Under the pieces are notes generated by a model. The model was given only the letters and a program-made list of their open reading frames with translations. It made no database searches and was not told where the DNA came from. 35,712 nt of DNA from an uncultured Gammaproteobacteria bacterium. GTDB lineage: Bacteria > Pseudomonadota > Gammaproteobacteria > Pseudomonadales > Azotimanducaceae. The translations under genes and the position numbers were made by a program. Shown here one piece after another: positions 31,551 to 35,712 of the stretch (its first letter is position 1; the number at the start of each line of letters is the position of its first letter). The stretch is from positions 1 to 35,712 of the forward strand of contig CAJXCK010000013.1 in NCBI GenBank assembly GCA_913051785.1, in the 5' to 3' direction.

Positions 31551-33227
31551 ATGGTTGATGAGCGAAAGTATAGTTCAAGAGTCGTAGACGGAATCGAACA
31601 GGCGCCCAGCAGGGCGATGCTTTATCCCACGGGATTCAAAAAGGAAGACTTCAGCAAGCCACAAATTGGAGTCGCTTCGCTGTGGAGCATGGTAACTCCC
31701 TGCAACATGCACATAAACCATTTAGCTGACGAGGCCATTAAAGGAGCAGATAGTGCTGGAGGCAAAGGTGTCCTCTTCAACACAATAACCGTTTCAGATG
31801 GCATTTCCATGGGTACGCCTGGAATGAGATTCTCTCTCGTATCAAGAGAAGTTATCGCTGACTCAATTGAAACCGTTGTTTGTGCTCAGGGGTTTGATGG
31901 TTTCGTGGCTATTGGTGGTTGCGACAAAAATATGCCTGCCTGCGGCATCGCGATTGCACGCATGAATCGTCCAAGTGTTTTCGTCTATGGCGGCACCATT
32001 TTACCTGGGGAGCAGCGCCGAGATATCGTATCGGTGTTTGAGGCTGTAGGCAGCCACGCTGCAGGAAAAGTTTCAGACATTGAGTTACAGGAAGTGGAAG
32101 CTACGGCGATACCTGGACCGGGATCATGCGGTGGCATGTATACCGCCAATACAATGGCGTCATCGATGGAGGCATTGGGGCTGTCTTTACCTAATAGCTC
32201 TGCACAAAATGCAGTTAGCGAAGCCAAGCTCCAGGACAGTTACAACGCCGGGGCAGCTGTACGCAACCTGATTAAAATGGGGATCAAACCCAGTGACATC
32301 CTGTCCCGAGAAGCATTCGAAAACGCAATAACCCTCACTATCGCATTGGAGGGGTCTACGAACGCAGTACTACACCTGTTAGCCATAGCGCATGCTGCGG
32401 AAATCCCCCTAACTCTGGATGATTTCAGCCGAATTGGTAAGCGAGTGCCCGTTCTGGCTGATATGCGCCCAGCAGGTCACTACGCCATGAGCGAGCTTAT
32501 AGAAATTGGTGGCATCCAACCGCTTATGAAGACTTTACTCGCTGAAGGTTTAATCCACGGCGATTGCTTAACGGTGACCGGAAAAACCTTGGCGGAAAAT
32601 TTGATGAATGTGCCTGACTATCCGGCCACACAAAAAATAATCCGTCCACTTAGTAATCCAATCAAGAAAGACAGTCACTTAGTCATACTGCGGGGCAACC
32701 TAGCACCAGAGGGCGCCGTTGCAAAAATCACCGGTCATGAGGGTCTGACGTTTACGGGCACCGCTCGCTGCTTCCACGGCGAAGAAGCCGCTATGGCAGC
32801 AATTATGGGCGGCACTGTGGATAAAGGTGATGTGGTAATCGTGCGCTATGAGGGACCAAAGGGAGGCCCGGGAATGCGAGAAATGCTCAGCCCAACCAGC
32901 GCCATCAACGGCCGCGGACTCTCCGAACACGTTGCACTATTGACAGACGGTCGTTTTTCTGGAGGTTCCCATGGATTCGTAATTGGCCATGTAACACCCG
33001 AGGCTCATTTGGGCGGACCCATAGCACTAGTACATGACGGCGACACGATTACAGTCGATGCCGAACAGTGCACGGTGACCTTAGCCGTGAGCGACGAAGA
33101 AATGGCTCAACGTCGGGCTCAGTGGACACCACCAGAGCCTTATGCGACGAGAGGCACACTGGCCAAATATGCACAACAGGTCAGCTCAGCAAGTGAAGGC
33201 GCCGTTACTGATAAGTATCTGGACTGA
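31551..33227 (+). CDS. ilvD: Dihydroxy-acid dehydratase
   Basis: Fe-S region motifs [13 protein letters not shown] and [60 protein letters not shown] before the ATG at 31551. Confidence 0.97.
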
Positions 33228-33228
33228 A

Positions 33229-33468
33229 GTGCAGCCAGCCGCAGACTGCAGGCTATGCGATGCGCCGAGCGAGAACCGCCACAGCGTGCCGGTCTACCGG
33301 CTATCGGTTTGTGATTTGTGCTGGCAGCAGGCCCAGAACGGCTGGCCTAAGGAGGCTGAGCCTATTTTATTCGCCGCGCTGGCCAAGGCCGGTCTGCTGA
33401 TCCCGGACCGCAACGACCGCGGTTTGTTGCCACGGCAATATGCGCCACCAAAAGACTACGCCCTTTAA
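33229..33468 (+). CDS. Small CxxC/CxxC (putative zinc-ribbon-like) protein, 79 aa, unknown function
   Basis: GTG one nt after the ilvD TGA; VQPAADCRLCDAPSENRHSVPVYRLSVCDLCWQQAQNGWPKEAEPILFAALAKAGLLIPDRNDRGLLPRQYAPPKDYAL; the ORF track gives a longer version from 33142. Confidence 0.6.
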   Translation: MQPAADCRLCDAPSENRHSVPVYRLSVCDLCWQQAQNGWPKEAEPILFAALAKAGLLIPDRNDRGLLPRQYAPPKDYAL

Positions 33469-33488
33469 TCCAGCCCGCGCCTATGTCC

Positions 33489-33896
33489 TCAACTTGTAGG
33501 AGTTAGTCGCAGTGCTACCGAATCCTCTCTGGGCGCCATCATGCTGATGATCTGATCGCGCCAGCCGTACTTATCGCGCATCAACTCATTCACTAGTACT
33601 ACTCGCTCCGGCTCTGATGCAATAAAAAACTCATAACGGACGCCATCACGCTCCAAGGCCACTGGCATGGATTGCGCAAGGGCGCGCTGGGTTCATCCCG
33701 AGGCGGCGTCTCCGCGCAGCCACATCGCGCCGTCGTGATCCACCACCCATAAGCCCGTTGTTGTTGGAGCACTAGTCGCCTGATCCACTGAAGTCAGTAC
33801 CACCACCTCACCAGTTTCCGACGCCACCCCTTGCAGCAAGACGACAAACAACAGCAGCGCGAATACACTGCCTACCAGCTTTGCTATCAGTCTCAT
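33489..33896 (-). pseudogene. Small nitroreductase/PNPOx-like (DUF385-type) secreted or membrane-anchored protein interrupted by one in-frame TGA (33693-33695)
   Basis: N-terminal ORF MRLIAKLVGSVFALLLFVVLLQGV...LWVVDHDGAMWLRGDAASG* continues in the same frame after TGA as TQRALAQSMPVALERDGVRYEFFIASEPERVVLVNELMRDKYGWRDQIISMMAPREDSVALRLTPTS*. Confidence 0.75.
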
Positions 33897-33925
33897 AATT
33901 CTCCCGAGTGGTGCGTCGAAACGCT

Positions 33926-34951
33926 TTAGCGGGCGCTGTGCTGATGCACAAAATCCACTAGGAACTTAACGTTATCCACCGGCGTCTCAGGAATGATGCC
34001 GTGGCCTAAGTTAAAGATATGACCGCCGCGACCTGCCACGTCGTGCAAAAGCTGACCTGCCTGCTGGCCGATTGCGCGTTGCTCTGCACACAATATAATT
34101 GGATCCAAATTACCCTGCACCGCCTTACAGCCAAGCTGCTCCCACGTTGCTACCAGCGGGGTACGCCAATCAAAGGCTAAAACGTCGAAGGGTAAGGTGG
34201 ACACGCTCGGTAGCAGATGCGAATTGCCAGTACCGAAATAAATTACCGGTACCGTAGTGCCCAATTGCTGTAGCATCGTCTCTAAATACGGGTGCACAAA
34301 AGTGGTGTAATCCTGAATCGACAAGTTGCCCACCCAAGTGTCAAATAACTGCACCGCCTCCACCCCAGCACTGATCTGCAGCTGCAGATAACTGACCAGT
34401 TGCTGTACCAACTTTTCCATAAGGTGGGCCCATAAGTCCGGGCGGTTGTGCATCATTTTTTTCACTTCAACATAGTTGCGCGAGCCGCGTCCTTCTATGG
34501 CATAAGAGGCCAGCGTGAAGGGCGCTCCAGCAAAACCAATTAACGCGATGTGCTTGGGCAAATCCGCATTAATGCAGCGAACGGTATCCGCAATATAGGG
34601 CGTGGCTTCTATGGCAGGCGCTGTCCGCAGCGCCACAACATCCTTTTCATGACGAATGGGATTACTAAAAACTGGCCCCTCACCAGGCAAATAGTCTAAG
34701 TGCAATCCCATAGGCTCAAGAATAGGTAGTAAATCAGCGAACATAATGGCGGCATCAACTCCGAGAATACGCTGAGCGTCTAATGTCGCTTGGGCGGCTT
34801 TCTCTGGATTTTTAAAAAAATCCAAGCTCGGCAGGTCACCTTTCACTTGATGATATTCGGGCATGTAGCGCCCGGCCTGGCGATTCAGCCATATAGGCGT
34901 CCTGGGGGTCCGTTCTCCTCGACATGCCTGAAGAAATATTTTTTCCTTCAT
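33926..34951 (-). CDS. hemE: Uroporphyrinogen decarboxylase
   Basis: TPIWLNRQAGRYMPEY; IMFADLLPILEPMGL; GFAGAPFTLASYAIEG; NLGHGIIPETPVDNV. ATG at 34951 preferred over 34963. Confidence 0.97.
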   Translation of the reverse strand: MKEKIFLQACRGERTPRTPIWLNRQAGRYMPEYHQVKGDLPSLDFFKNPEKAAQATLDAQRILGVDAAIMFADLLPILEPMGLHLDYLPGEGPVFSNPIRHEKDVVALRTAPAIEATPYIADTVRCINADLPKHIALIGFAGAPFTLASYAIEGRGSRNYVEVKKMMHNRPDLWAHLMEKLVQQLVSYLQLQISAGVEAVQLFDTWVGNLSIQDYTTFVHPYLETMLQQLGTTVPVIYFGTGNSHLLPSVSTLPFDVLAFDWRTPLVATWEQLGCKAVQGNLDPIILCAEQRAIGQQAGQLLHDVAGRGGHIFNLGHGIIPETPVDNVKFLVDFVHQHSAR

Positions 34952-34959
34952 CTGTTTTC

Positions 34960-35712
34960 TCACCCGAAATCGAAAATGCGCTTTGGATCGACATCTAATT
35001 CATAATCAATGTCATCGAACCCGAAACCGAAGATATTCAAAAAATCAGAACGGAAACCCTCTAAATCGCCTAGTTCATCGAGATTTTCTGTCGTTACATT
35101 CAGCCAATTTTGTGAGACTACCTTTTGAACTTCAGGCCGTAATTCGAGGTCATCCATTCGAATCCGACCCTCATCGTCTAGACGCTGCTCAACGCCACCC
35201 AAAAGTTGCGTGGCGAATAATCGATATATATGCGTAATACAGTCTTCATGAAGATTCATTCTCTTCATCACACGAAACAGCAGCGCAACGTAAAGCGGAA
35301 CGACTGGAATCGCCGCACTTGCCTGACTAACTATCGCCTTCAAAACGGCGACCTGCGCCTTACCGCCAATAGTAGTCAGTTTCTCTGAGATAGCTCTACT
35401 CGCTCTATCTAAATCTGCTTTTGCTAAACCGAGAGTCCCATCCCAATAAATAGGCCAGGTTAATTTACTGCCAATATAGGTGTAAGAAATCGTTTTTGCT
35501 CCCTCCGCCAAGAGGTCTGCTTCTGCCAACGCGTCAATCCAATACTCCCAGTCCTCACCACCCATGACCGCCACTGTTGACTTTGCCTCCTCTTCAGTCG
35601 CTGGTTCCAAAGTTATTTCGCTGACCTCTCCTTTTTCGACATGCACTGTCTTTATCCGAAGAACACTTTCCATGGGTTTTATACTTGAGCGGTAAAGCAA
35701 TCCATCCTTTGG
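34960..35712 (-). CDS. fabV: Enoyl-ACP reductase FabV (trans-2-enoyl-CoA reductase family), partial (N-terminal part beyond right edge)
   Basis: PATEEEAKSTVAVMGGEDWEYWIDALAEADLLAEGAKTISYTYIGSKLTWPIYWDGTLGLAKADLDRA; frame remains open to the window end (PKDGLLYRSSIKPMES...). Confidence 0.93.
   Translation of the reverse strand, partial: PKDGLLYRSSIKPMESVLRIKTVHVEKGEVSEITLEPATEEEAKSTVAVMGGEDWEYWIDALAEADLLAEGAKTISYTYIGSKLTWPIYWDGTLGLAKADLDRASRAISEKLTTIGGKAQVAVLKAIVSQASAAIPVVPLYVALLFRVMKRMNLHEDCITHIYRLFATQLLGGVEQRLDDEGRIRMDDLELRPEVQKVVSQNWLNVTTENLDELGDLEGFRSDFLNIFGFGFDDIDYELDVDPKRIFDFG

Follow-up and report, generated by a model that had tools for sequence, protein, structure and literature searches.

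A recent nonsense codon at a conserved tryptophan probably inactivates a putative F420-reductase-like gene beside hemE in a gammaproteobacterial metagenome contig

A single in-frame TGA, at a codon that specifies tryptophan in every aligned intact homologue, interrupts a small gene next to hemE in the DNA of an uncultured gammaproteobacterium. Many related marine bacteria keep an intact version of it at that place. The window, meaning the whole stretch of 35,712 nucleotides that was analyzed, is an entire contig of a 134-contig MAG. We favor, with a probability of about 0.72, the reading in which a recent nonsense mutation, or a strain variant, inactivates an F420-reductase-like gene. The simplest history is a single G-to-A change on the coding strand. 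The case is that of a clean, explained nonsense codon at a conserved Trp, spotted from raw sequence, and one caution goes with it: the gene sits in the mosaic end of a metagenome contig (Table 1).

Table 1. Coordinates of the interrupted gene, its altered codons and its surroundings in the window
Feature	Positions	Strand	Remarks
Interrupted gene	33489..33896	-	135 codons plus final TGA; one in-frame TGA; predicted N-terminal membrane helix and split-barrel, F420-dependent-reductase-like
In-frame TGA, codon 68	33693..33695	-	TGG in 19/19 aligned intact homologues
Codon 48, GGC (Gly)	33753..33755	-	Arg in 19/19 intact homologues; change private to the window copy, base 33755
Codon 77, ATG	33666..33668	-	ACG in the three closest relatives; private in-frame ATG downstream of the TGA
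hemE (uroporphyrinogen decarboxylase)	33926..34963	-	Immediately upstream of the interrupted gene; neighbors in more than 20 same-genus genomes
Tract about 97% identical to G009 (ARS1012)	33215..34589		34590-34785 is a less similar transition

The interrupted frame and its intact relatives

Translation of the minus strand from 33896 to 33489 gives MRLIAKLVG...LRGDAASG*TQRALAQ...LRLTPTS*, where the asterisks mark stops. The TGA at 33695-33693 is the sole interruption, there is no indel, and a second TGA at 33491-33489 ends the frame. An earlier note on this DNA had described exactly these coordinates and this frame, with the TGA splitting an otherwise intact gene. Sequence comparison indicates that the frame is not open by chance alone, since all 135 codons align without gaps to the intact orthologues of the three nearest relatives, which are of the same genus: ARS1012 (G009), CPC316 (G008), and ERR599006_bin.59 (G038). 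These proteins are stop-free and 94, 90, and 90% identical to the window copy over their full length, respectively, and at the same locus in all three genomes the frame is open and the codon at the TGA position is TGG. The gene is present in most genomes of the genus: 40 of them yield 38 other matches without a single internal stop, and the window copy alone has one.

Among 19 aligned intact homologues, the column of the interrupted codon is always Trp, always encoded by TGG, and the half of the gene downstream from the TGA aligns in the intact orthologues. With TGG invariant in the relatives and the 38 other matches all free of internal stops, the proposal that TGG was changed to TGA at the Trp following an SG pair holds. 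The downstream block N..M..KYG, singled out in the same note as NELMRDKYGW, is indeed conserved, with N103, Y110, and G111 invariant and M106 and K109 nearly so among the 19 homologues. In a scan of the window against sister orthologues, the interrupted gene is the only one with an internal stop; the remaining “stop” matches appear to be shadow frames on the strand opposite real genes, or precede a start codon.

Fold of the intact protein and the F420 link

The intact G009 protein, as modeled with AlphaFold2 (pLDDT 85.9), has a single N-terminal helix (residues 2-27) followed by a split-barrel. When this model is submitted to Foldseek, the top solved structures are 7kl8, 3h96, 3r5y, and Ddn (E about 1e-5), the nearest being F420-binding, Ddn-type proteins: Rv1558, Msmeg_3358, Nocardia nitroreductases, and Ddn itself. 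Sequence-only searches of the PDB return chance matches, namely an influenza haemagglutinin chain alone with the family profile and aminopeptidases with one homologue; the fold is assigned by structure comparison instead. The earlier assignment to small secreted nitroreductase/PNPOx-like proteins thus stands at the level of the fold, but “secreted” should give way to membrane-anchored in view of helix 2-27.

Profile matches are mostly weak. DUF2255 (PF10012), a domain of no known function, is matched by 18 of the 19 intact homologues; L017 passes its cut-off, but the nearest orthologue, L003, stays under it (22.7 bits vs. 29.8). F420H2_quin_red (PF04075), the closest F420-reductase profile, is matched by 7/19, at best with an E-value of 2.3e-5; it does not match L003, and L017 scores 18.2 bits, under the curated cut-off of 22. 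NCBIfam adds weak F420-dependent matches. The intact protein is most likely an F420-dependent reductase.

In Ddn, the loop that follows strand 3 carries W88, which touches F420 at its phosphate and ribityl moieties (PMC3267046). In the G009 model, W68 is found directly past the third strand (strand 57-63, with a helix from 67), and a weak alignment (E 0.21) pairs it with the same-motif Trp of MSMEG_2850. This position and this pairing suggest that W68 is probably the equivalent of the F420-contacting W88. The protein resembles Ddn of Mycobacterium tuberculosis (FDOR-A, PF04075) in its predicted split-barrel, in a Trp located in the loop behind strand 3, and in having an F420-making host. It differs in its N-terminal membrane helix, in a weak PF04075 match that is under the cut-off where checked, and in the stop carried by the window copy.

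This genome encodes CofD, which occurs throughout the genus, and a CofH-type F420 synthase, both over their curated cut-offs. Both lie at G000:C5:25929-29933, where the CofH-type match falls in an 834-aa frame along with a second, weaker match, an arrangement like that of a fused FO synthase. Biologically, the stop itself is of less interest than a gammaproteobacterial genus that encodes F420 synthesis and retains, next to hemE, a membrane-anchored F420-reductase-like gene. Other F420H2_quin_red genes are present in this genome, including a strong match (PF04075) at G000:C50:3482-3877 which is possibly a functional F420-dependent reductase, though a protein query finds neither a second copy of the interrupted gene in the assembly nor a compensating intact paralogue in the genome.

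Neighborhood and mosaic contig end

Up to about 31.6 kb, the window is about 65-70% identical to its sisters. From 31596 to 35712, the identity to G009, G008, and G038 changes in sharp steps, the first at about 33.2 kb, the second at about 34.6-34.8 kb. ilvD is 80-88% identical to the three sisters; the gene under study lies in a high-identity tract of ~1.4-1.6 kb inside otherwise distant DNA; and between 34803 and 35712 the identity is about 98% to G038 but about 60% to G009 and G008. The G+C content is 0.54 in the middle of this mosaic end and 0.46 in its last part, which matches the remainder of the genome. The mosaic end possibly reflects inter-species recombination or chimeric assembly, and a short foreign tract between home-like flanks favors natural recombination over a chimeric join. 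A small conserved ORF at 33094-33465 on the plus strand, which has no Pfam match, is 82-85% identical in the sisters, overlaps the end of ilvD, and converges on the broken gene.

The G038 assembly shows a related peculiarity. Its contig CAJXAC010000073.1 (G038:C73, locus L033) is a hybrid at hemE/fabV, with a fabV side 98% identical to the window, and a second fabV locus of the native type, 93% identical to the sisters, is found on a short contig (G038:C119, L064). G038:C73 is likely to be chimeric or recombinant at hemE/fabV. Since this hybrid has the same hemE/fabV boundary, cross-assembly of species that occur together has to be taken seriously.

Alternative readings of the stop codon

Such mixing bears on whether the base is genuine. 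The TGA might occur in no cell, as the result of a consensus error, or might come from an assembly chimera built of mixed reads from co-occurring related species. The mosaic last ~4 kb of the MAG contig would fit with this, as would the G038 hybrid with its native-type fabV elsewhere, but several observations point the other way. hemE and ilvD each occur only once in the genome, and because the G+C content of the distal fabV segment is that of the home genome, a chimera would need two switches. The hemE stretch of the same tract is normally conserved, with 3 nonsynonymous vs. 10 synonymous changes, so the tract is not generally error-rich. Lastly, mixing leaves unexplained a TGA present in no relative. 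On balance we consider an artefact unlikely. Phase variation, also raised in the earlier note, finds no support, since one base was substituted and no repeat changed in length.

If the base is genuine, the stop could still be read. In low-level readthrough, a near-cognate tRNA-Trp would decode UGA and reinsert Trp at the required site, so that the stop merely lowers expression. This would fit with a UGA at a Trp position in a frame that is intact apart from it, and conserved in-frame stops with dN/dS below 1 have been reported as widespread in bacteria (PMC7918605). Here, however, the stop is confined to one genome, R48 is lost as well, and no stimulatory RNA structure is found at the stop, where folding is no stronger than in shuffles (z -0.90). 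A tRNA-Trp with a 4-bp anticodon stem has been proposed as a UGA reader (PMC13092985), but the tRNA-Trp of this genome has a CCA anticodon, not UCA, and a normal five-pair anticodon stem, as read by eye. Readthrough therefore seems improbable, and more doubtful still is its elaboration into a regulatory or tolerated UGA, with Trp insertion at the cofactor-contacting residue yielding low levels of protein from a gene just gained by inter-species recombination. Split translation, in which the private ATG at codon 77 would start a separate product from the downstream half, deserves very little credence: this ATG (33668-33666) is new in the window lineage and opens a 59-codon frame, but it has no clear ribosome-binding-like sequence upstream, and the G009 model suggests that a split-barrel divided after strand 3 would be unlikely to assemble. 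An in-frame TGA within an otherwise open gene might also point to UGA recoding, either as Trp genome-wide or as selenocysteine, which would leave the gene intact. This is contradicted, and we give it practically no weight. TGA is a usual terminator, ending the same gene in 11/19 intact homologues (the three nearest included) and ilvD at the same place in the sisters; an internal TGA is found in only one gene of the window; the tRNA-Trp is ordinary; no tRNA-Sec over the Rfam cut-off appears in a search; and the column is Trp in homologues, never Cys.

Fate of the gene

The favored reading is thus that of a nonsense mutation, in which one substitution, from TGG to TGA at the codon for Trp68, would recently have inactivated a small, hemE-linked, membrane-anchored split-barrel gene. 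Only the membrane helix and strands 1 to 3 would be translated. The truncated product would lack both the Trp probably equivalent to the F420-contacting residue of Ddn and the whole C-terminal half, and should be non-functional. The nonsense allele may be fixed in the species, or it may segregate as a strain variant. The stop, the intact orthologues, the invariance of W68, the private loss of R48, and the lack of another copy in the assembly are observed; loss of function, F420 binding, and a genuine base as opposed to a consensus error we infer. Since the gene has been kept beside hemE in more than 20 genomes, its loss would strike a long-kept gene.

Changes on the window branch were counted in a comparison with G009 that used G008 and G038 as outgroups. 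Five are nonsynonymous (R48G, W68*, T77M, V91F, and A100V) and three synonymous, a ratio that is not significant and is underpowered, whether set against an omega of 0.17 (binomial P 0.09) or against the adjacent hemE stretch in the same comparison (Fisher P 0.16). The intact G009 copy is similar on its own branch, with 3 nonsynonymous vs. 1 synonymous. The double loss of the invariant residues R48 and W68 is suggestive, but not proof, of relaxed selection rather than a lone base error. The frame beyond the TGA has no further stop or indel, so that we only infer decay. That any decay would be young, as the earlier note had argued, fits with how little the gene has diverged from its nearest intact counterpart, at 14 countable changes across its length. 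A broken gene of this sort is an ordinary kind of event: recent single-stop pseudogenes and in-frame-stop polymorphisms of bacteria (PMC7918605) likewise have one in-frame stop in an otherwise intact frame, and nothing notable sets the present copy apart from them, its stop falling at a Trp that probably contacts the cofactor.
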